DNA from: an uncultured Spartobacteria bacterium
Lineage (GTDB): Bacteria > Verrucomicrobiota > Verrucomicrobiia > Chthoniobacterales > Chthoniobacteraceae
Direction of reading: 5' to 3'
NCBI GenBank assembly: GCA_903882875.1
Contig: CAIRYQ010000030.1
Location: 1 to 64,000, forward strand
Length of the DNA: 64,000 nt
A program made the position numbers and the translations under genes. Every line of letters starts with the position of its first letter. Position 1 is the stretch's first letter. This document shows, one piece after another, positions 39,485 to 53,589 of the stretch. The notes beneath the pieces are model-generated. The model saw nothing but the letters and a program-made list of their open reading frames with translations. It did no database searches and had not been told where the DNA came from.

Positions 39485-40108
39485 ATGAATGCGCTTGGCC
39501 GTTCATTTTTCCAACGCGATCCGGTGACGTGCGCACGGGAACTGATCGGCTGCACGCTACGCTGGGGGGATTGCGCGGGGGTGATCGTGGAGACGGAGGC
39601 GTACGGTGCGCTGAACGACGAGGCGAGCCACATCTGGTCGCGACCGAGTGCGCGCGCGTTCGTCGCGAACCATCCGGCGGGCGCGGCGTATGTGTATTTC
39701 AACTACGGGATGCACTGGATGCTGAACGTGCTCGTGAAAGGCGGGAGCGAGGACGGCTTCGTGCTGTTCCGCGCGATCGAGCCGGTGGAGGGAATCGCGG
39801 CGATGACGCGGCGGCGCGCGAAGAATTCAAGTTTCAAAATCCAACGTCCGAAATCCAACTCGTGGCTATGCAGCGGGCCGGGGAAGCTCGCGCAGGCGCT
39901 CGGGGTGACGGGACGCGATCACGGGCGGGATTTTTGCGCGGGTGTGGGCGTGGGATTTTTTCCGTCCGCGACTGCGGTGGAGATCGAATCGGGAGCGCGC
40001 ATCGGAATTTCGCGCGCTCAGCATCTCGCGTGGCGCTTCATGCTGCACGGGAGCGGACACGTTTCCGTGAAGCCATCCTCGAAGCTGCGGCTCCCGGAAA
40101 AAGAGTGA
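39485..40108 (+). CDS. 3-methyladenine DNA glycosylase (AAG/MPG type), with small in-frame insertion
   Basis: The ATG at 39485 (MNALGRSFFQRDPVTCAREL) gives 207 residues. VIVETEAYGALNDEASH carries the catalytic Glu of the alkyladenine glycosylase family, and YFNYGMHWMLNVLV and the 'GPGKLAQALGV' block match. The enzyme removes alkylated purines in base excision repair. Between the RRRAKN segment and GPGKLA about 14 residues (SSFKIQRPKSNSWL) are not expected. The encoding bases (about 39824-39863) contain TCCAACGTCC, shared with the repeat at 40903-40921. Probably still functional since the insertion lies in a loop. Confidence 0.88.
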   Translation: MNALGRSFFQRDPVTCARELIGCTLRWGDCAGVIVETEAYGALNDEASHIWSRPSARAFVANHPAGAAYVYFNYGMHWMLNVLVKGGSEDGFVLFRAIEPVEGIAAMTRRRAKNSSFKIQRPKSNSWLCSGPGKLAQALGVTGRDHGRDFCAGVGVGFFPSATAVEIESGARIGISRAQHLAWRFMLHGSGHVSVKPSSKLRLPEKE

Positions 40109-40422: not shown

Positions 40423-40878
40423 TCAGTCGCCCGCCTCGATGATCACTTCGATGCCCTCGGGCACGGTGTCAAAAAGGTCGATCACGTCCGCATTCGAGAG
40501 CCGCACGCAGCCGTGGCTCGCAGACATGCCGATGAGATGCTCGGCATTCGTGCCGTGGATGTAGATGTAGCGATCTTTTGTGTTCGCGTTTTCGGCATCG
40601 AGCCCGTCGAGCCAGAGGATGCGCGTGGTGACGTGATCGCCTTCCAAACTGTGCGCGGCGATTTCGCCGGTCGGTTTGCGGCCTTTGAAAATCATCCCCG
40701 GCGGCGCGCTGTGGCCGTGCTTTTCGGCGATGCGGAATTTTCCGAGCGGCGTGCGGTTCGAGCCGGGCTCGGTGCCGGTGCCAAATTTCGACGTGGAGCA
40801 CGCGTAGCGCCGCAGCAGCGCGCCGGAGTCGTCGAGAAGGTCGAGTGTCTGGCTCGAGATATGAACGAAGATACGCAT
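40423..40878 (-). CDS. L,D-transpeptidase (YkuD domain)
   Basis: The ATG at 40878 (MRIFVHISSQTLDLLDDSG) gives 151 residues, a single YkuD domain. RTPLGKFRIAEKHG, IYIHGTN and the catalytic motif SASHGCVRLSNADVIDLFD (nucleophile Cys) are clear. It forms 3-3 peptidoglycan cross-links or attaches proteins to the wall. No signal peptide is visible, though the very short N-terminus resembles that of other verrucomicrobial copies; a role on the cell-wall side is inferred. An 81-bp inverted repeat lies immediately upstream. Confidence 0.9.
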   Translation of the reverse strand: MRIFVHISSQTLDLLDDSGALLRRYACSTSKFGTGTEPGSNRTPLGKFRIAEKHGHSAPPGMIFKGRKPTGEIAAHSLEGDHVTTRILWLDGLDAENANTKDRYIYIHGTNAEHLIGMSASHGCVRLSNADVIDLFDTVPEGIEVIIEAGD

Positions 40879-40880
40879 GG

Positions 40881-40961
40881 GCGGAAGCGAACAATGTCCG
40901 GCGTCCAACGTCCAACGTCCAATTTGGCAGACTAGGCCCGGTGGACGTTGTTCGCTTCCGC
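40881..40961. repeat. Palindromic element with 19-bp arms and GTCCAAC tandem core
   Basis: GCGGAAGCGAACAATGTCC at 40881-40899 is matched by GGACGTTGTTCGCTTCCGC at 40943-40961 (one mismatch). The centre holds a run of GTCCAAC copies (40903-40921). It sits directly upstream of the L,D-transpeptidase start. A copy of the TCCAACGTCC core is found inside the glycosylase gene. Confidence 0.75.
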
Positions 40962-41016: not shown

Positions 41017-42135
41017 ATGCGCCCTCCGTCTCCCATCCAGTCTCCACGCTTCGGGCGCACGGCAGGGATTGCGGCGGCGATTCTGGCTACCGTCGCCGTG
41101 CTCCAGCTTGGCGCGGTGACGGTAGCCTTTTTCCGGAAATCCCCGCGCGGCATCGCGGAAAATGGCGACGAAGTGCCGCACCCGCCGCCGCTGAAGATTG
41201 ATGTGAGCAAGATCGTCGCGGCGTCGCCGCCGCCGGAAAATCCCGGCGCGCTGCTCGTGGATCCTCTGCTGCCATCGCGCGAGGAGCGCCCGCCGGGGCC
41301 GCGTCCGCTGCTGCCGCACGCGGAGCCGCTGCCGCTGCCGGCGGAGACGACGACGGAGCCAGCGAGTGTCCTGCCGCCGCGTCCGACGCCGGTGCCTTTG
41401 ATCGCGTTCACGCCGAAGACGGATCCGCGTTACGGCGAACTCGTCGAAGAGGGAAAGCTGCTCCGCAACAGCGGCGACACGGCCGCGGCACTCGTGAAAT
41501 TCCGCGAGGGTGTGACGATCGAGCCGGGCAATCCGCTCGCGATCGCGGAGATGGCGTTCACCTTTGAAAAAATGAGCCTGCCGGAGAAGGCGGCGGAGCA
41601 GTGGAAGCGCATTTTCGTGATGGGCGATCGCGCGGGCGTCTTCTACGCGATGGCGAGGACGAAGCTCGAGTCCGCCGTGCAGGACACGATGCGCACGGTC
41701 GGTGGTCCCGCGGGGGTCGCAAACGGCAAGGTTCTCTCGATCGGCGCGCTGGCGCTGGCGGATGATCCCGATCCCTCCGCTGCAAAACGCTTCGCGCTCA
41801 CGGTGCCGATCCGCGCGCGCGCGGGGGAGGACGTGGCGGTGAATGAGATGAAGGTGTTCGTGCTTTTCTACGAGCGCGTGAACGGCAAGGACATCGCGAA
41901 GACAATCGCCGAGGTGGGCAACCGCTGGACTTCCGCGCCCGTGGACTGGAAGGACGGCGACACGGAGACGCTCGAGGTGAGCTACGATCTCAGCGCGCAG
42001 CAGGCGCGCGCCGAGCGCCGCGAATATCACGGCTACATCGTCAGGCTTTACTACCGCGGGGATTTGCAGGACACGAAGGCCGAGCCGGCGAGCCTGAGCC
42101 AGAAATTCCCCGCCCCTCTGACGATTTCGGAGTAG
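41017..42135 (+). CDS. Membrane-anchored TPR-like protein with Pro-rich linker
   Basis: This 372-residue protein has one TM helix at about 16-39 (AGIAAAILATVAVLQLGAVTVAFF). A Pro/Glu-rich linker of about 85 residues follows, then a TPR-like part (about 135-200, with LVEEGKLLRNSGDTAAALVKFREGVTIEPGNPLAIAEMAF) and a C-terminal beta-rich domain containing VPIRARAGEDVAVNEMKVFVLFYE. It is 11 bp before the receiver/pseudokinase/FGE gene, so the two are co-transcribed. I do not recognise a named family. It may be a periplasmic scaffold for that system. Confidence 0.6.
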   Translation: MRPPSPIQSPRFGRTAGIAAAILATVAVLQLGAVTVAFFRKSPRGIAENGDEVPHPPPLKIDVSKIVAASPPPENPGALLVDPLLPSREERPPGPRPLLPHAEPLPLPAETTTEPASVLPPRPTPVPLIAFTPKTDPRYGELVEEGKLLRNSGDTAAALVKFREGVTIEPGNPLAIAEMAFTFEKMSLPEKAAEQWKRIFVMGDRAGVFYAMARTKLESAVQDTMRTVGGPAGVANGKVLSIGALALADDPDPSAAKRFALTVPIRARAGEDVAVNEMKVFVLFYERVNGKDIAKTIAEVGNRWTSAPVDWKDGDTETLEVSYDLSAQQARAERREYHGYIVRLYYRGDLQDTKAEPASLSQKFPAPLTISE

Positions 42136-42146
42136 CGAACCCATTC

Positions 42147-44450
42147 ATGAGAATCCTGATTGTTGACGACGAGGCGGACGTTTTGCAGTCCATCATGGCC
42201 ATTGTGAGGGCGGTGCCAGGGCACGAGGTGCGCGTCGCCGCGAATGCGCAGAAGGCGATGGATCACGCGGCGGCTTTCGGCGGTGTGGACATCCTGATCA
42301 CCGACGTGGTGATGGAGCCGACAAACGGCTTCACGCTGCGCGCCACGCTCCAGGAAGCGTATCCGGCGATGCGGACCATTTTCGTGAGCGGCTACGATCT
42401 GAGCGACTACGCCGAGCAGATCGGCGAGGCTGCCGTGGTGCCGAAGCCCGTGGATGCAATGGCGCTCATCACCGAGATCGGCCGGGCGCTCGGACATGAT
42501 GCCGCCCCTGCGGCCACAGCGGCTGTGCCGGAAAAGGCGCGCGTCGCGGGAAAGACGACCGCCATCACCGTGCCTGCCACGGTGGTAAGCGCACCAGCGG
42601 CTGCGCCCGTGCCGGTCGCGGTGCCGGTGCAGGCTGTGGCAGTCGCTTCAGTGCCAGCGGTCGTGCAGCAGGCTCCGGTCGTTGAGAGCGGCGTGAGAGC
42701 AGTACCGCAGTCGGGCATCGTGGCGCGGCCCGTTGCGTCCGAGGAGGGCGTCGCTGATCCGCTCATCGGCGTGCAGCTCGGCGACTACCGCGTGCAGCAG
42801 GTCATCGGCGAGGGGAAATGGGGGCGCGTCTATCTCGCATTGCAGCTCAGCGTGAACCGGCGCGTCGGACTGAAGGTGCTCGACCCCGCGCGGGCGGAGG
42901 ATGCGGATGTGCGCGCGCAATTTCTCGCGGACGCGCGCGCGAAGGCCGCCGTGCAGCATCCGTTCATCATGTCCGTATTCGAGGCCGACGAAAAAAACGG
43001 GCTCGCATTTTTCACGCAGGAATTCCTCGACGGAGCGAGCCTCGGGGAACTCATCGCGCGAGGGCAGAAGCTCGATGAAAAGGCGGCGCTCCAGGTGCTC
43101 AAAGTCGCCGGCGAGGGCCTCCATTACCTGTGGTCGCACAATCTCTCGCACGCCCCGGTGGACGAGGACAGCTTCCGCCTCGGCAGTGACAAGATCGCGC
43201 GGATGGCGAACATCGCCAGCGCCGATGCGGATCCGGCAGTCACGGTCGAACGTGAGCTGTTGACGGTGGGCACCATCGTCAAACAGCTCACGCAGGAGGA
43301 TTCCATCACCGTCGGCCTGCGGATGCTCCTGAGCCGCATGACCGGCGGCCCGAACCCCGTGACCGGCTGGCCTCCCGTGCTCCAAGCCGTGAAGGCGCTC
43401 GAGCCAAAGGTCATCCCGGTCGAGGCCGCGAAAATGAAGGCGGCGGACGCCGCGGCGATGCGCGCGGTGGAGGCGCATCGCCGGGCCAAGAAGCGCGGCC
43501 TCATCATCAGCATCTGCACGCTGAGCCTGCTCCTGATCCTTCTCGGGTTCGTGATTTGGAAATTCGCGATTTCCAATGCGCGGAAACTCGACATGCAGGT
43601 GGCGATCCCGGCGGGCACCTACAATGTCGGTGACCCGCAAGTCGGCGCGAAGGCGCCGCTCGCGGCGTTCGACATAGACAAGTATGAGGTCACGATCGGC
43701 GAGTACGCGAAATTCATCGCATGGTGCGAACAGAACGAGACGCGGCAGCACGAGTTCGATCACCCGCGTGGAGATCGGAAGATCCCGCATGTGAACGCCG
43801 AGGTGCAGACGCTCATCCTGAACGCGACGCAGCGCGGGCGGCGTGTCTTCCCCCATCCGGCCGATCCCTCGCGGAAACTCGGCGAGGATCCCGGCGCGGA
43901 GGTGGATCTGAACTGCCCTATGGTCGGCGTCACTTTCTGGGATGCCTACGCGTACGCGCACTGGCGCGGGAACGACCTGCCGACCGAGGAGGAATGGGAG
44001 GCCGCTGCGCGCGGGACGAAGGGATTCAAGTATCCTTGGGGCGACAAGCTGGAGCTGAAAAATTTCAACTCGAACGCGGGCTACAACGCACTGATGCCCG
44101 GCGCGACGAAGACCGACGACGGCTACAACTACTGGGCGCCCGTGGATGCGTTTTCGGGCGACGTGAGCGAATTCAAGGTCGTCGGCATGGCCGGCAACGT
44201 GTGTGAATGGGTCTATCGCAAGGAAGGCGCGAAGGAACTTCCGCTGCTCAAGGGCGGCTCATTTGCGAGCGACCCGATCCCGATGTGGGGCCGCGTGCCG
44301 AAGATTCCCGCGGAAGACGCTTGGTTCGTCCATCCAGCTTCTGAGAAAAAGCCCGGGCCGACCACCGCCGAGGTGTATTATGTCGGCGACGAGGTGACGC
44401 CATCCTTTCGTTCGCTCTACGTCGGGTTCCGCACCGTCAAACGCAAATAA
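42147..44450 (+). CDS. Fusion: response-regulator receiver, pseudokinase, TM helix, FGE/SUMF1-like domain
   Basis: This 767-residue protein has a receiver domain at 1-115 with phosphoacceptor Asp53 (ILITDVVM) and Lys100. An Ala/Val/Pro-rich linker spans about 118-205. A Ser/Thr kinase-like domain starts at 213 with glycine loop IGEGKWGRVY (220-229) and Lys243, but the catalytic loop is HNLSHAPVDEDSF (331-343), lacking His-Arg-Asp, and no DFG is seen (RMANIA at 352). It is thus a pseudokinase. A TM helix lies at about 451-471. The periplasmic FGE-sulfatase-like domain covers 485-767 (PAGTYNVGD, DIDKYEVTIGEYAKF, LPTEEEWEAAARG, GMAGNVCEWVYR, LLKGGSF). The likely role is signal transfer from phosphorylation to an extracytoplasmic domain. 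Confidence 0.85.
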   Translation: MRILIVDDEADVLQSIMAIVRAVPGHEVRVAANAQKAMDHAAAFGGVDILITDVVMEPTNGFTLRATLQEAYPAMRTIFVSGYDLSDYAEQIGEAAVVPKPVDAMALITEIGRALGHDAAPAATAAVPEKARVAGKTTAITVPATVVSAPAAAPVPVAVPVQAVAVASVPAVVQQAPVVESGVRAVPQSGIVARPVASEEGVADPLIGVQLGDYRVQQVIGEGKWGRVYLALQLSVNRRVGLKVLDPARAEDADVRAQFLADARAKAAVQHPFIMSVFEADEKNGLAFFTQEFLDGASLGELIARGQKLDEKAALQVLKVAGEGLHYLWSHNLSHAPVDEDSFRLGSDKIARMANIASADADPAVTVERELLTVGTIVKQLTQEDSITVGLRMLLSRMTGGPNPVTGWPPVLQAVKALEPKVIPVEAAKMKAADAAAMRAVEAHRRAKKRGLIISICTLSLLLILLGFVIWKFAISNARKLDMQVAIPAGTYNVGDPQVGAKAPLAAFDIDKYEVTIGEYAKFIAWCEQNETRQHEFDHPRGDRKIPHVNAEVQTLILNATQRGRRVFPHPADPSRKLGEDPGAEVDLNCPMVGVTFWDAYAYAHWRGNDLPTEEEWEAAARGTKGFKYPWGDKLELKNFNSNAGYNALMPGATKTDDGYNYWAPVDAFSGDVSEFKVVGMAGNVCEWVYRKEGAKELPLLKGGSFASDPIPMWGRVPKIPAEDAWFVHPASEKKPGPTTAEVYYVGDEVTPSFRSLYVGFRTVKRK

Positions 44451-44454
44451 TTCC

Positions 44455-45321
44455 ATGAAACTCCACGCCATTTTTATTTTTCTCCTCGCCCTGCTTTCCG
44501 CCGCGGATGCGCAGCTCGAGGTCAGCCTGGATCTGAAGCGCACCATGTTCATGCGCGGCGAGCCGATGGAGGCCACCGTCATCATCCGCAATCTCGCGGG
44601 CAAGGACGTGATGCTCACGGACACCGACAACGAGCATTGGTTCGGCTTCGAAATCATGAAGGGCGAGGGCAACCCGATCGGGCCCTACAGCGGCACCTAC
44701 AAGAACGCGCCGCAGGTGCTCCTGAGCGGCGGCACGATGCGCCGCACGGTGGACCTCGTGCGGCTCTACCCGGTGAACGAATACGGCACCTACACCATCC
44801 GCGCGGCGATCTATTTTCAGGAGACGGGGAAATACATCGTCTCCGCACCGGCGAAAATTGACGTCAGCGAGGGGCGCAAACTCTGGTCCCAGACTGTCGG
44901 CGTGCCCGCATCGAAAGAAGGCGCCGGCGACTACCGCGTCGTGTCGCTCCTCACATTTCCGCATCCGAAGCAGATCATGCTCTACGCGCGCGTCGTGGAT
45001 GAAAAGACGGGCACCGTCTTCTGCACCTACCCGCTCGGCCGCTACCTGGCCGGAGCCGATCTGGGGCACGAGTTCGACCGCGAAAACTCGCTCCACGTCC
45101 TGCACATGATCGGGCCGAGCCAGTACTACCTTTCGAAAATCGGAGTGAACGGCGAATGGTACAGCCAGACGATGTGGGAATCCGGGAAAGGCCGGCCCAG
45201 CGTGAAAAAGAAAGAGGACGGCAGGATGGTCATCGTCGGCGCGACGCGCATGTCCGAACGTCCGCCGCCGGGCCCGGAAGTCCCACGCCTCAGCGACCGT
45301 CCCGTCGCGCTGCCGAAGTAG
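44455..45321 (+). CDS. Secreted hypothetical beta-sandwich protein
   Basis: This 288-residue protein has a signal peptide (MKLHAIFIFLLALLSAADA). The mature region starts with a bacterial Ig-like or CARDB-like stretch (LEVSLDLKRTMFMRGEPMEATVIIRN) and includes FGFEIMKGEGNPIGPYSGTYK and AKIDVSEGRKLWSQTVGVP. The second half is a separate beta domain ending in a Pro/Arg-rich tail. It starts 4 bp after the receiver/pseudokinase gene, so it is the third gene of that operon. No named family recognised. Confidence 0.6.
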   Translation: MKLHAIFIFLLALLSAADAQLEVSLDLKRTMFMRGEPMEATVIIRNLAGKDVMLTDTDNEHWFGFEIMKGEGNPIGPYSGTYKNAPQVLLSGGTMRRTVDLVRLYPVNEYGTYTIRAAIYFQETGKYIVSAPAKIDVSEGRKLWSQTVGVPASKEGAGDYRVVSLLTFPHPKQIMLYARVVDEKTGTVFCTYPLGRYLAGADLGHEFDRENSLHVLHMIGPSQYYLSKIGVNGEWYSQTMWESGKGRPSVKKKEDGRMVIVGATRMSERPPPGPEVPRLSDRPVALPK

Positions 45322-47166: not shown

Positions 47167-48729
47167 TCAAAAACATCCCGCGCGCAAACCGCGGAAAGCC
47201 GCTCCGAGAAAATCCAGCATCCGCGACGGCGTCAGCGATTCCTCGCTCTCGCCGCCATGCGAAATCGCGATCTCACTCGCGCGCCCGCACAGCCACGCAC
47301 CGAACCGCGCGGCGTCGAACGGCCGCACCCGCTGGCCGATGAGCGCGGCGATGACGCCTGTGAGCGCATCGCCCATCCCTCCGACTGCCATGCCGGGATT
47401 TCCAGTCGTGTTGAAACTCAGCGGCTCGCCGGATTTGCAGACGAGCGTGCGTGCGCCCTTCAGTAAAAGTGTCGCCGGATATTTTTTCACAAACGCCTCC
47501 GCCGCCTCCCGACGCGTCCGCAATCCGGAGCCGGGCGCGAGCCGTTCCATCTCGCCGGGATGCGGCGTGAGCACGCGCTCGCCTGCGGCCTTGGCGAGCA
47601 CGGAGAGATCGGGCGCGATGGCATTCAGGCCGTCCGCATCAAGCACGATGGGGTGCGAAAAATTTAACACCAGCGCCGCGACATCTGCGGCCGGTTGAGT
47701 ATTCTCGACACATTCATCCCCCAAAAGTTCGCGTAGAATATCACTGCCAACAGGCACTGGCGGCAGCGCGCCGAGACCGGGGCCGATTGCGAGCACATCG
47801 AACTTCTCCGCGAGCAGTTCGTCCGTCGCCGACAGCACGCGCACCATCACCTCGGGCGCAACTTTGATCGCAAGCGCCTCCACAATCTCCGGCGGCGCAA
47901 ACAGCGTGACGAGCCCCGCGCCAGCGCGCACGCACGCCGCCGAGCACAGCACCGCCGCACCGAGGTAGCCCCGCGATCCCGCGATGATTCCGATGCGCCC
48001 GCAGTCGCCCTTGTGCGTGTCGCGCGCGCGCCGCGGCAGGAGCGGCCGCAGGATTTCCGGCGTGACCACGGTCGCGTCCGCACCCGCCTCATCGTGCCGC
48101 GCGCTGAGTTCGCGCAGCGGCAGCACGCTCAGACGACCGACAAAATTGGTCGCGCAGTCCGCGACGAGCCCGCGCTTGGCAAAGCCGATCGTGAGCGTGT
48201 GATCCGCAATGATGCACGCGGGATCCGCAGCGCCCGTGTCGCCATCCAGCCCGGTCGGGATGTCGAGCGCGAAGACGGCCGCATTGCCGCCGCTGCGAAG
48301 ACGGTTGATCGTGCGCGTGATGCCGGCCAGCGGCACGCGCAGCGCACCGCTCGCGCCGATGCCGAGCAGCCCGTCGAGAACCACAAGCGGCGTGCCGGCC
48401 AGCGAATCCAGCTCCGCGATTTCCGCGCTGCGGCACTGCGCCGCCGCCGCAAATTTCGCCCTCGGCAGCGGCCCCCATTCCGTTTCGGGAAACGCCGCGA
48501 CGAGCCGCACGTCCCACCCCCGCGCCGCAAGATGCCTCGCCGCGACGAGCGCATCGCCGCCGTTGTTGCCCTTTCCAAACACCGCGGCGCACACGCCGGG
48601 CTCCGGGAAAAACTGCCGCACTGCGCGCGCGATCTGCGCGCCGGCCTCCTCCATCAGCGCATCGGCGGAGACACCGGCGGCGAATGCCCGCCGCTCGACT
48701 TCCTTCATCTCAGCGCAGGTCAAAATCAT
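47167..48729 (-). CDS. nnr: Bifunctional NAD(P)H-hydrate repair enzyme (epimerase/dehydratase)
   Basis: The ATG at 48729 (MILTCAEMKEVERRAF) gives 520 residues. The N-terminal YjeF-N domain (epimerase) has FGKGNNGGDALVAARHL, ALDIPTGLDGDTG and LTIGFAKRGL. The C-terminal ribokinase-like domain (dehydratase) has HKGDCGRIGIIAGSRGYLGAAVL, LDADGLNAI, LTPHPGEMERL and the catalytic GGMGDALTGVIAAL. It repairs damaged NAD(P)HX. It is divergent from the nuclease-methyltransferase gene. Confidence 0.94.
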   Translation of the reverse strand: MILTCAEMKEVERRAFAAGVSADALMEEAGAQIARAVRQFFPEPGVCAAVFGKGNNGGDALVAARHLAARGWDVRLVAAFPETEWGPLPRAKFAAAAQCRSAEIAELDSLAGTPLVVLDGLLGIGASGALRVPLAGITRTINRLRSGGNAAVFALDIPTGLDGDTGAADPACIIADHTLTIGFAKRGLVADCATNFVGRLSVLPLRELSARHDEAGADATVVTPEILRPLLPRRARDTHKGDCGRIGIIAGSRGYLGAAVLCSAACVRAGAGLVTLFAPPEIVEALAIKVAPEVMVRVLSATDELLAEKFDVLAIGPGLGALPPVPVGSDILRELLGDECVENTQPAADVAALVLNFSHPIVLDADGLNAIAPDLSVLAKAAGERVLTPHPGEMERLAPGSGLRTRREAAEAFVKKYPATLLLKGARTLVCKSGEPLSFNTTGNPGMAVGGMGDALTGVIAALIGQRVRPFDAARFGAWLCGRASEIAISHGGESEESLTPSRMLDFLGAAFRGLRAGCF

Positions 48730-48878
48730 GTGCGGAGAGTGATGCCGCGCCGCTGCATCGGCACGCGAAAAGTGCCTGCGCGAGATTCCATGACGACCGA
48801 AGCCAACAGACGGTTGGGACGAAGCGGCGACCCTGCGGGCTTGCCTTGCCTCCGATCCGCAACGCACAGTCCGCACGC

Positions 48879-51800
48879 ATGACCCCTGTGGAAAGTTACC
48901 TCGCCGACCTGCTCGCAGCGCGCGGCGCGGGCACCGCCGAGACTTCCGGCTATCCGGCGCTCGCGAACCTGCTCAATGAAGTCGGCGGCGCGCTGAAGCC
49001 GAAAATCACCGCGGTCATCCATCCCGCGAACAGCGGCGCGGGGCTACCGGACGGCGGCTTTTTCTCCGCGAAGGAACTGCGTAAGCGACCCGACGAAACC
49101 TCCCTCTTCGAGCTGAAGCCCGAGCGCGGCGTGCTCGAAGTGAAGCCGCCCGATCACGATCTCGGCACGCTCGCGCAGAGCGCGCAGGTGCGGAACTATC
49201 TCGATCACTACGGCCAGATTCTCCTCACGAACTACCGCAGCTTTGCGCTCTGGACGTGGGAGGGCGGCAAGCCCGTCGCGGGCGAAAATTTTCACCTCGC
49301 GGAAAACGAGGGCGCATTCTGGGACATCGCGCGGCACGCGCGCGACCACCGGCTCCTCGGCGAACGCCTGCTGGAATACCTTCGCCGCGTCCTGCTGAAC
49401 CGCGCGCGGCTCGCTTCGCCGCAGGATCTCGCGGCGTATCTCGCCAGCTACGCACGCGAGGCGCGCGCACGCGTCGAGGGCGCGCCCGCCGACACGCTCG
49501 CGCCGGTCGCGGAGGCGCTCGGCACCGCGCTCGGCATCCGGTTCGAGGGGGAAAAGGGCGCGCACTTTTTCCGCTCCACGCTCATCCAGACGCTCTTTTA
49601 CGGCATCTTCTCCGCGTGGGTGCTGTGGAATGAGGGCAACCCGAAACCCGGCGACCGCTTCCGCTGGCGCGAGGCCGCGTACCACCTCGGCCTCCCGGTG
49701 CTGCGCACGCTCTTCCACCAGCTCGCGCATCCGCAGCAGCTCCGCGCGCTCGGGCTGGAGGAGGTGCTCGACTGGACGGAGTCCACGCTCGCCCGCGTCG
49801 AGCGCTCGGCGTTCTTCGCGCGCTTCCGGCTCGGCGAGGCCGTGCAGTATTTTTACGAACCGTTCCTCGCGGAATTCGATCCGGGGCTGCGCAAGCAGTT
49901 CGGCGTCTGGTACACGCCGCCGGAGATCGTGAAATACATGGTCGCCCGCGTGGACCGCGCGCTCGTGGAAAATTTCGGCATCGCCGACGGCCTCGCGAGC
50001 AGCAAGGTCATCGTCCTCGATCCGTGCTGCGGCACGGGCGCGTATCTCGTCGAGACGCTGCGGGTCATTCACGAGCGGATGAAGGAGCAGGTCGGCGAAT
50101 CGCTCGCGGGCGTGTTTGCAAAGGAAGCCGCGCAGAAGCGGCTCTTCGGCTTCGAGCTGCTGCCCGCGCCGTACATCATCGCGCACCTCCAGCTCGATCT
50201 CCTGCTCCAGCGTTTGAACGGCGCGCTCGATCACGCGAAGGGCGAGCGCGCGGGCGTCTTCCTCACGAATGCGCTCACCGGCTGGGTGCCGCCCGAGGAA
50301 CCGAAGACGCTCCTCTTCCCCGAACTCGCCGCCGAGCGCGACGCCGCGGACCGCGTGAAGCGCGACGCCGAGATCCTCGTCATCCTTGGCAATCCGCCGT
50401 ACGACGGCTTCGCGGGCATTTCCGTCGAGGAGGAGCGTTCGTTGAGCGAAGCCTACCGCACCACGAAGGCCGCGCCGAAGCCGCAGAGCCAGGGCCTGAA
50501 CGATCTCTACGTCCGCTTTTTCCGCATGGCCGAGCGCCGCATCGTCGAGGGCGCGCCTCAGACGGACGATCCCGCGATGCGCCCGCCCGCGCCGGGGCGG
50601 CACGGCATCGTCTGCTACATCTCGAATTATTCGTGGCTCGACGGACTCTCGCATCCGGGGATGCGCGAGCGGTTCCTCGATGTCTTCGACCGCGTCACCG
50701 TGGACTGCCTGAACGGCGACAAATACAAGACCGGCAAACGCACGCCCGACGGCCAGCCCGACCCGAGCGTCTTCAGCACGGAGCACAACCGCGAGGGCAT
50801 CCAAGTCGGCACCGCCATCGCGATGCTGGAGCGATGGCCGCGCCCGGAGGAAAATCTCGCGCCACCGCCACCGCTGCCGAAACAGCGCGCGCTCGATCTC
50901 CAGCCAAAGAAAACTGCGACGAAAACGAAGCCGCCGAAGCCGCACGCTGCCGACGTGAAGTTTCACCACTGGTGGGGAAAGGAGAAACGCGCGGAACTGC
51001 TCGGCTCGCTCGACACGAAGACGAGCTACGAAAAACTCAAGCCCGCGCTGCCGCTCGGCCTGCCGTTCGTGCCGCTCGCTGTGCGGCGTGAATTTGCGAA
51101 GTGGCCGCTGCTCGTGGAATTGCTCGGGGAGTTTTTCCCCGGCGTCCAAACGAAACAGGACAACCTGCTCACAGACATTTCGCGTGAACGACTCGAAGCG
51201 CGAATGAAGCTCTATTTCGATCCGAAGATTGGCGACCGAGAACTTGCGGAGCGAGTGCCGAATTCGATGGATGGAACAACGGCGTGCAACGCGAAAGAGA
51301 CGCGGGCTTACCTCGTCCAGCGAGGGTTCCTGCCAAAGTTCATCGTTCGCTACGCATTCCGTCCGTTCGATGTTCGCTGGCTCTACTGGGAACCCGAAAC
51401 CAAACTGCTTGGTCGCAAGGTTCCCGAATACTTTCCTCACGCCAAGGATGCCAACTGGACACTCGTGAGTCAGTCAAAGCCACGTCGCGAATGGTCGCCT
51501 CCCCTGCTCATCCGCCAGCTCGGTTGCCTCGATCTTTTCGACAGAAGCGCGAGCTGCTTTCCCGCTCTGCTTTACCCCAACGACACGACCTCCTCCGTCG
51601 TCCGCGAGACGCCCGATCTTTTCGCCGCCGACGCTGGCGGCGGTTTCGGCGGCGACGGGAAACCCGTGCCCAATCTCACGCCCTTCGCTCGCGACTACCT
51701 CGCGAAGCTCGGCGCGAAGCCCGAGGATCTTTTCTTCCACATCGTCGCGATCCTCCACGCGCCCGCGTATCGCACGGAGAATGCCGGCGCGCTGCGGCAG

Positions 51801-52340
51801 GACTGGCCGCGCATTCCGCTGCCGGAGGACGTGAAGACCCTGCGCGCCGGGGCCGCTCTCGGGCGGCAGGTCGCCGCGCTGCTCGATCCCGAGTCCGAAG
51901 TGCCCGGCGTGACGGACAAGAAAATCCACGCCGAACTGCGCGACCTCGCTGCGATCACTGTCTCACCCGACGGGAAATCGCCCGATCTCTCCGTCGCCGC
52001 GCGCTGGGGCCACGCCGGGCAGGGCGGCGTGGTGATGCCCGGCCCCGGCGACGTGCGCGCAGGCACGCGCGGCGCGGGCTTTGTGGATATCCACCTGAAC
52101 GCCACCACGCGCTGGAAGGACGTGCCCGCCGATGTGTGGGCCTACACGCTCGGCGGCTACCAGGTGCTCAAGAAATGGCTCAGCTACCGCGAGGCCGCCC
52201 TGCTCGGCCGCGCGCTCACCGCCGACGAGGCGCTCGAATTCACCAAGCACGTCCGCCGCATCGCCGCGCTGCTCGCGCTGCACCCGCAGCTCGACGCCCA
52301 TTACGCCGCGACGACCGCCTCCGCACACACCGGATCGTAA
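48879..52340 (+). CDS. Single-chain restriction-modification enzyme (nuclease-N6-adenine methyltransferase)
   Basis: The ATG at 48879 (MTPVESYLADLL) gives 1153 residues. An N-terminal PD-(D/E)XK-like nuclease is seen: Pro57-Asp58 (LPDGGFF) and Glu87-Val-Lys89 (VLEVKPPDHD). The helical connector runs to about 330. The N6-adenine MTase part has VWYTPPEIVKYM, motif I DPCCGTG (381-387) and motif IV NPPY (505-508). The C-terminal 650 residues hold the target-recognition part. No helicase motifs are seen, so a Type IIG or ISP-like layout fits better than Type I. Composition drops to about 55% GC within about 51140-51590 (residues about 754-904). It is a stand-alone defence gene. Confidence 0.88.
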   Translation: MTPVESYLADLLAARGAGTAETSGYPALANLLNEVGGALKPKITAVIHPANSGAGLPDGGFFSAKELRKRPDETSLFELKPERGVLEVKPPDHDLGTLAQSAQVRNYLDHYGQILLTNYRSFALWTWEGGKPVAGENFHLAENEGAFWDIARHARDHRLLGERLLEYLRRVLLNRARLASPQDLAAYLASYAREARARVEGAPADTLAPVAEALGTALGIRFEGEKGAHFFRSTLIQTLFYGIFSAWVLWNEGNPKPGDRFRWREAAYHLGLPVLRTLFHQLAHPQQLRALGLEEVLDWTESTLARVERSAFFARFRLGEAVQYFYEPFLAEFDPGLRKQFGVWYTPPEIVKYMVARVDRALVENFGIADGLASSKVIVLDPCCGTGAYLVETLRVIHERMKEQVGESLAGVFAKEAAQKRLFGFELLPAPYIIAHLQLDLLLQRLNGALDHAKGERAGVFLTNALTGWVPPEEPKTLLFPELAAERDAADRVKRDAEILVILGNPPYDGFAGISVEEERSLSEAYRTTKAAPKPQSQGLNDLYVRFFRMAERRIVEGAPQTDDPAMRPPAPGRHGIVCYISNYSWLDGLSHPGMRERFLDVFDRVTVDCLNGDKYKTGKRTPDGQPDPSVFSTEHNREGIQVGTAIAMLERWPRPEENLAPPPPLPKQRALDLQPKKTATKTKPPKPHAADVKFHHWWGKEKRAELLGSLDTKTSYEKLKPALPLGLPFVPLAVRREFAKWPLLVELLGEFFPGVQTKQDNLLTDISRERLEARMKLYFDPKIGDRELAERVPNSMDGTTACNAKETRAYLVQRGFLPKFIVRYAFRPFDVRWLYWEPETKLLGRKVPEYFPHAKDANWTLVSQSKPRREWSPPLLIRQLGCLDLFDRSASCFPALLYPNDTTSSVVRETPDLFAADAGGGFGGDGKPVPNLTPFARDYLAKLGAKPEDLFFHIVAILHAPAYRTENAGALRQDWPRIPLPEDVKTLRAGAALGRQVAALLDPESEVPGVTDKKIHAELRDLAAITVSPDGKSPDLSVAARWGHAGQGGVVMPGPGDVRAGTRGAGFVDIHLNATTRWKDVPADVWAYTLGGYQVLKKWLSYREAALLGRALTADEALEFTKHVRRIAALLALHPQLDAHYAATTASAHTGS

Positions 52341-52845: not shown

Positions 52846-53589
52846 ATGAAACTGCTCAACATCCTCGCGGCGCTCTGCCTCGCCGCATTCACCGCCGCAT
52901 CCGCCGCCGACGCAAATCCCGGGGATCGGGTCGCCGCGAAATTCACCGACGGCACCTGGTACCTCGCGACCGCGACCGCCGCGCGCGGCGCGGAATTCGA
53001 CGTGCTCTACGACGACGGCGACAAGGCCACCGTGCCCGCCGCGGACGTGATCCCGATTCCGCGCGGCACGGTGTTCAAGACGGGCGACATCGTGCTCGCG
53101 CCGTGGAGGACCGCGCAGATGTTTCCCGGCACCGTCACGGCGACCACGCGCTTCACGGTGACGGTGAAGTGGGACGACGGCGACGAACCGCTGGAGGTCG
53201 CGAACGATCGCGTCCTGATCATGAAGGCCGGATTCGCCGCGCAGGCCGCGCCCGCCGCGGCACTCGCCGCCGGCACGGGCGTCGCGGCGAAGTGGGGCGC
53301 CGACGGATTGTTCTACATCGGGACGATCACGGGTATCACCGACACGGGGAAATACCGCGTGGAATACGGCGACGGCGACAAGGGCAACGTGGCCGCGGCG
53401 GACGTGGTGCCGGTGAATGCGGCCCGCGAGATCGCCATCGGCGCACATGTGCTCGCGTGCTGGCGCGGCGCGCAGATGTTTCCCGGCACCGTCACCGCGC
53501 GCAACGGGAACAGCTACACGGTGAAATGGGACGACGGCGACACGCCGCTGGAAGTCCCGCGCGAAAAGATCGCGCCGCTCGCGCGCTGA
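52846..53589 (+). CDS. Secreted Tudor-like (SH3-barrel) repeat protein
   Basis: This 247-residue protein has a signal peptide (MKLLNILAALCLAAFTAASA). Four SH3-like beta domains follow in an A-B-A-B order. Type A has VAAKF/KW...Y...DGD (VAAKFTDGTWYLAT; VAAKWGADGLFYIG), and type B has VLAxWRxAQMFPGTVTA. Each ends with a strand carrying DDGD or YGDGD. The fold matches the Tudor/agenet-like domains of chromatin proteins, which bind methylated Lys or Arg or nucleic acid, yet here it is exported. Ligand unknown. Confidence 0.8.
   Translation: MKLLNILAALCLAAFTAASAADANPGDRVAAKFTDGTWYLATATAARGAEFDVLYDDGDKATVPAADVIPIPRGTVFKTGDIVLAPWRTAQMFPGTVTATTRFTVTVKWDDGDEPLEVANDRVLIMKAGFAAQAAPAAALAAGTGVAAKWGADGLFYIGTITGITDTGKYRVEYGDGDKGNVAAADVVPVNAAREIAIGAHVLACWRGAQMFPGTVTARNGNSYTVKWDDGDTPLEVPREKIAPLAR

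Follow-up and report, generated by a model that had tools for sequence, protein, structure and literature searches.

YukC is a membrane pseudokinase that makes contact with every component of the type VIIb secretion system (T7SSb) and does not bind ATP (PMC9600267). In the type IX secretion ring, PorK contains an FGE fold without catalytic cysteines that serves as a docking hub (PMC12421860), and FGE/CLec domains have been proposed to act as sensors in other bacterial proteins (PMC10907252). Here we describe gene B, which lies in a 64,000-nt stretch of DNA from an uncultured Spartobacteria bacterium (contig CAIRYQ010000030.1; hereafter, the window) and encodes a protein with similarities to both systems. 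Like YukC/EssB, it has a cytosolic Hanks-type pseudokinase followed by a membrane anchor and an extracytoplasmic domain, an order of compartments that is predicted in the case of B; unlike in YukC/EssB, the extracytoplasmic domain is FGE-like and a receiver is often added. With PorK/GldK it shares an FGE fold that lacks the two catalytic cysteines, for which we propose a similar hub role in B, whereas PorK/GldK is outer-membrane-associated and has neither kinase nor receiver. Tests of membership in these families were negative: B had no match to the EssB/YukC Pfam family at E up to 1, no T7SS genes were found among its conserved neighbours, and the NCBIfam GldK model scored 43.8 bits on B against a cut-off of 350. 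YukC and PorK are analogies for B, which belongs to neither family.

Architecture of gene B and its neighbours

Gene B is the middle member of a three-gene unit, A-B-C, with the following features.

41017..42135 (+): gene A; N-terminal transmembrane (TM) anchor, low-complexity linker, TPR and a C-terminal region without a recognised family
42147..44450 (+): gene B; 767-aa protein that joins a receiver, linker, pseudokinase, TM helix and FGE-like domain (ORF, Pfam)
42147..42494 (+): receiver domain of B, residues 1-116; D7, D8, D53, S81 and K100 intact (Pfam Response_reg at 3-110, 3.8e-13)
42495..42761 (+): Ala/Pro/Val-rich linker of B, residues 117-205; weakly constrained (dN/dS 0.29-0.40)
42762..43421 (+): Hanks-type pseudokinase of B, residues 206-425; HRD replaced by HAP and DFG by MAN; R238, N355 and W408 conserved (Pfam, alignment)
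43488..43583 (+): TM helix of B, residues ~448-479; positive side toward the pseudokinase (Kyte-Doolittle scan)
43593..44447 (+): FGE/SUMF1-like domain of B, residues 483-767; FGE Cys pair absent; predicted periplasmic (Pfam FGE-sulfatase, PF03781, at 483-690, 5.6e-34)
44455..45321 (+): gene C; begins with a signal peptide and continues with Ig-like and other all-beta sequence; matches no Pfam family; homologues phylum-wide

The domain order and membrane crossing that an earlier note had read from this DNA are borne out by the Pfam domains and by a single TM helix, which is preceded by a KKR cluster and followed by the FGE-like domain. This topology would place the pseudokinase in the cytoplasm and the FGE-like domain in the periplasm. 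The spacing is 11 nt from A to B and 4 nt from B to C, and the TM anchor of A and the signal peptide of C agree with the note's description of tightly linked, membrane-anchored and secreted neighbours. Pfam and PDB profile searches assigned no confident family to gene C or to gene A beyond the TPR. The best of five structure models of C had a pLDDT of 61.8 (the others about 42), with weak Foldseek matches to beta-sandwich proteins.

Every domain of B is under purifying selection. When window B was compared with its counterparts L054 and L055 from the same genus, dN/dS was 0.12-0.17 in the receiver, 0.14-0.16 in the pseudokinase and 0.18-0.22 in the FGE-like domain, against 0.29-0.40 in the linker; these values rule out gene B as a decaying pseudogene. 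Structure prediction from the same three sequences gave a mean pLDDT of 37.9 and a sensible shape for the receiver only. The model is therefore uninformative on the pseudokinase, and the assignment of B as a dead enzyme is carried by alignments and not by structure.

The outer flanks of A-B-C vary among loci. In the window, an L,D-transpeptidase gene (40423-40878, −; YkuD 5.8e-23) is divergent from gene A. Short TCCAACGTCCAA repeats occur at 39840-39851 and 40904-40922 (three matches, 0.24 expected); one lies within a methylpurine glycosylase gene, where it resembles an in-frame insert, and the others are intergenic. Further downstream are a Type ISP restriction-modification-like protein (48684-52340, +; Type_ISP_C 7.8e-49, N6_Mtase 5.1e-10) and a protein of 247 aa whose start resembles a signal peptide and which carries two Tudor/Agenet-type domains (52846-53586, +; Tudor_3 1.4e-18, DUF4537 2.2e-18), a eukaryote-like fold that is apparently exported.

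The kinase and FGE-like domains lack catalytic residues

The kinase region of window B matches Pkinase (PF00069) at residues 214-335 (2e-12), which covers the first 121 of the 263 profile positions. By sequence its nearest kinase is PknB, with an alignment across the whole domain (residues 214-429, 4e-14), but PknB and other bacterial Ser/Thr kinases are active enzymes with HRD and DFG. In the alignment to PknB, HRDVKPAN corresponds to HAPVDEDS and DFG to MAN in window B, as the claim of a kinase-like domain without these catalytic residues had implied. Of the features of an active Hanks-type kinase, window B has the profile match, a glycine loop (GEGKWG) and the VAIK lysine (VGLKV), and lacks the HRD and DFG aspartates; neither the loop nor the lysine is conserved family-wide. 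HRD and DFG are both intact in five kinase relatives from the genome that contains the window.

No HRD or DFG tripeptide was found in the kinase region of any of 80 homologues. An active site restored by shifted residues was also sought by alignment and none was found, with an acidic residue at the DFG-Asp column in 0/80 homologues and at the catalytic-Asp (HRD) column in 2/80. Other positions are close to fixed: R238 and A231 in about 100% of the homologue alignment, N355 in 77/80 (96%) and W408 in 87%. Unconventional catalysis or functional ATP binding would fit the glycine loop and VAIK lysine of window B, but the family offers no acidic substitute at the DFG and catalytic columns and the VAIK lysine is retained in only 31/80 homologues, so that ATP binding is not the property conserved in the B family; we regard retained kinase function as highly improbable. 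Taken together, the alignments predict that the kinase domain of B is catalytically dead across the family.

The FGE-like domain, too, lacks its catalytic Cys pair, and does so family-wide, a feature beyond those that the earlier note had described. Window B matches the FGE-sulfatase profile, yet past the conserved GG it reads GGSFASDPIPMWGR, with no cysteine, and no FGE-type Cys pair was seen in the B family homologues. By sequence, the closest solved structure to this domain is SUMF2 (1.7e-16), an FGE paralogue known to lack FGE activity; SUMF2 itself, however, is eukaryotic and free-standing. The domain could instead catalyse a different reaction, such as EgtB-like iron chemistry. The FGE-sulfatase family contains such enzymes and the domain has weak matches to EgtB and SenA, but its best solved relative is SUMF2 and the NCBIfam enzyme models score far under their cut-offs, which makes this reading quite improbable.

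Gene B is inherited vertically beside A and C

Of 40 genomes in the family, 36 have a strong match to B, as do 86 of 213 in the order; each carries one such gene (listed in two pieces in some genomes). Of 171 genera sampled across the class, 69 contain relatives with E no higher than 1e-20, a count that may take in non-orthologous kinase-FGE proteins. The nearest named records come from Verrucomicrobiota and 'Spartobacteria' genomes. The B gene tree broadly tracks taxonomy, and gene B is vertically inherited. The earlier note had considered that the domain order might be common and already named; it is common within the class, but we found no name for it anywhere. A search of open-licence papers for FGE/pseudokinase proteins in Akkermansia or Verrucomicrobia and for Akkermansia essential genes returned nothing on the B protein.

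The linkage of the three genes also holds up in comparative genomics. Among 80 B loci, A lies nearby in 65 and C in 60, on the same strand and mostly adjacent, many with a 4-nt overlap, and no neighbours of B other than these two are conserved. The unit is distributed over much of the class and reaches the gut bacterium Akkermansia muciniphila ATCC BAA-835, in which A, B and C are consecutive near 2.174-2.178 Mb. There, B has no receiver and Pfam reports only its FGE part, and the family profile detects the pseudokinase at 4.8e-53.

The receiver is repeatedly degraded or lost

All five active-site residues of the receiver (D7, D8, D53, S81 and K100) are present in window B, in line with the intact phosphoacceptor noted earlier, and the receiver is also intact in the examined members of the window's own genus. 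Among 81 homologues, 30 keep all five, 37 miss at least one and 14 have no receiver or a truncated one, some of these 14 being cut by contig ends. The 37 are pseudo-receivers under a published definition (PMC12632262). A quick gene tree implies 12 changes of receiver state, and well-supported branches alone force eight changes of the 'degenerate' label, although losses are possibly overcounted given the distant alignment. In more than half of the homologues, the pseudokinase, TM helix and FGE-like domain are retained while the receiver degenerates or disappears. This repeated degeneration and loss speaks for a receiver that serves as an optional input instead of driving the protein.

These observations bear on the phosphorylation-driven switch that the earlier note had suggested. 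In such a switch, a histidine kinase would phosphorylate D53 and the pseudokinase would pass the change across the membrane, by way of the TM helix, to the FGE-like domain in the periplasm. The intact quintet in the window and its genus, and the low dN/dS of the receiver, speak for such inside-out signalling. Against it stand the repeated degeneration and loss of the receiver in homologues that keep the rest of the protein, the receiver-less A. muciniphila B, and conserved neighbours that include A and C but no histidine kinase. We therefore consider it unlikely. As a general mechanism the suggestion is not supported, with intact receivers in only 30/81 homologues; in the window's own genus, a phospho-input through the receiver is possible.

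A and C flank a variable slot

A and C are far more widespread than B, occurring in 176/213 and 181/213 genomes of the order, and in a phylum-wide sample of 387 genomes the C profile has matches in 269, almost always a single one. At three loci (L175, L176 and L185), A is directly beside C and B is absent. C sits on a separate contig from B in two genomes (G007 and G008), and is distant from B in several genomes of family f15. Many genomes of the order retain A and C but have no B, so B is dispensable for whatever A and C do.

In more distant lineages, C occurs on its own, with neither A nor B. About 14-17 of 35 loci have a glycosyltransferase-9 (heptosyltransferase) and a calcineurin-like phosphoesterase gene immediately 5′ of C, and an N-acetylmuramoyl-L-alanine amidase gene lies 3′ of C in five of the distant-lineage loci (one example each: Glyco_transf_9 1.9e-50, Metallophos_2 2.5e-18, Amidase_3 5e-48). 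The position of C beside heptosyltransferase (LPS core) or amidase genes points to a possible part in envelope assembly or maintenance.

In f11, a family of the same order, we inspected the interval between A and C in 20 genomes. In four genomes of genus g40, the slot holds a pseudo-receiver, DUF4388 and a pseudokinase, without a TM helix or FGE. In 14 genomes it encodes a receiver-like protein 150-267 aa long, one of them truncated at a contig end, and the two of these that were scanned both carry DUF4388; the interval gave no match in the remaining 2/20.

L193:117-1577, L198:298-1041 and L200:155-835: f11 proteins of the A-C slot with a pseudo-receiver and DUF4388, with or without a pseudokinase

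The contents of the A-C slot keep changing while A and C remain in place. The f11 proteins also weigh on an outside-in sensor, in which the FGE-like (C-type-lectin-type) fold would bind a periplasmic ligand and the pseudokinase and receiver would transmit the signal. FGE/CLec domains are proposed sensors elsewhere (PMC10907252) and one TM helix connects the two halves of B; however, B has no recognisable cytoplasmic output domain, and the f11 slot proteins keep cytoplasmic parts without an FGE-like domain. We find such a sensor improbable.

A proposed envelope scaffold

By analogy with YukC and PorK, we propose that B is a single-pass envelope scaffold of Verrucomicrobiota that has no catalytic activity and docks A and C, a reading to which we give about an even chance. 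B would work like YukC/EssB inside and like PorK outside. In the cytoplasm, the pseudokinase would be a docking platform, to which an optional receiver or pseudo-receiver would add regulation or docking; in the periplasm, the membrane-anchored TPR protein A and the exported, Ig-like C would dock on the FGE-like fold as their hub. Both the scaffold function and a physical A-B-C complex are suggested by comparative evidence. More tentatively, and with somewhat less than an even chance in our estimate, B may belong to an unnamed Verrucomicrobiota envelope complex that comprises the phylum-wide exported C, the TPR protein A and a variable slot in the inner membrane or cytoplasm, filled by dead-enzyme modules (a receiver or pseudo-receiver, a pseudokinase, an FGE-like hub and DUF4388), and that has a conserved envelope job.

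If this proposal is correct, B would represent a new trans-envelope pseudoenzyme family in Verrucomicrobiota, about whose envelope biology little is known. One member is found in a culturable gut commensal, A. muciniphila, where its pseudokinase has been missed by Pfam. The A-C locus would also offer a natural series in which a single slot keeps, loses or swaps the receiver, the pseudokinase and the FGE-like domain, making the role of each dead domain testable.
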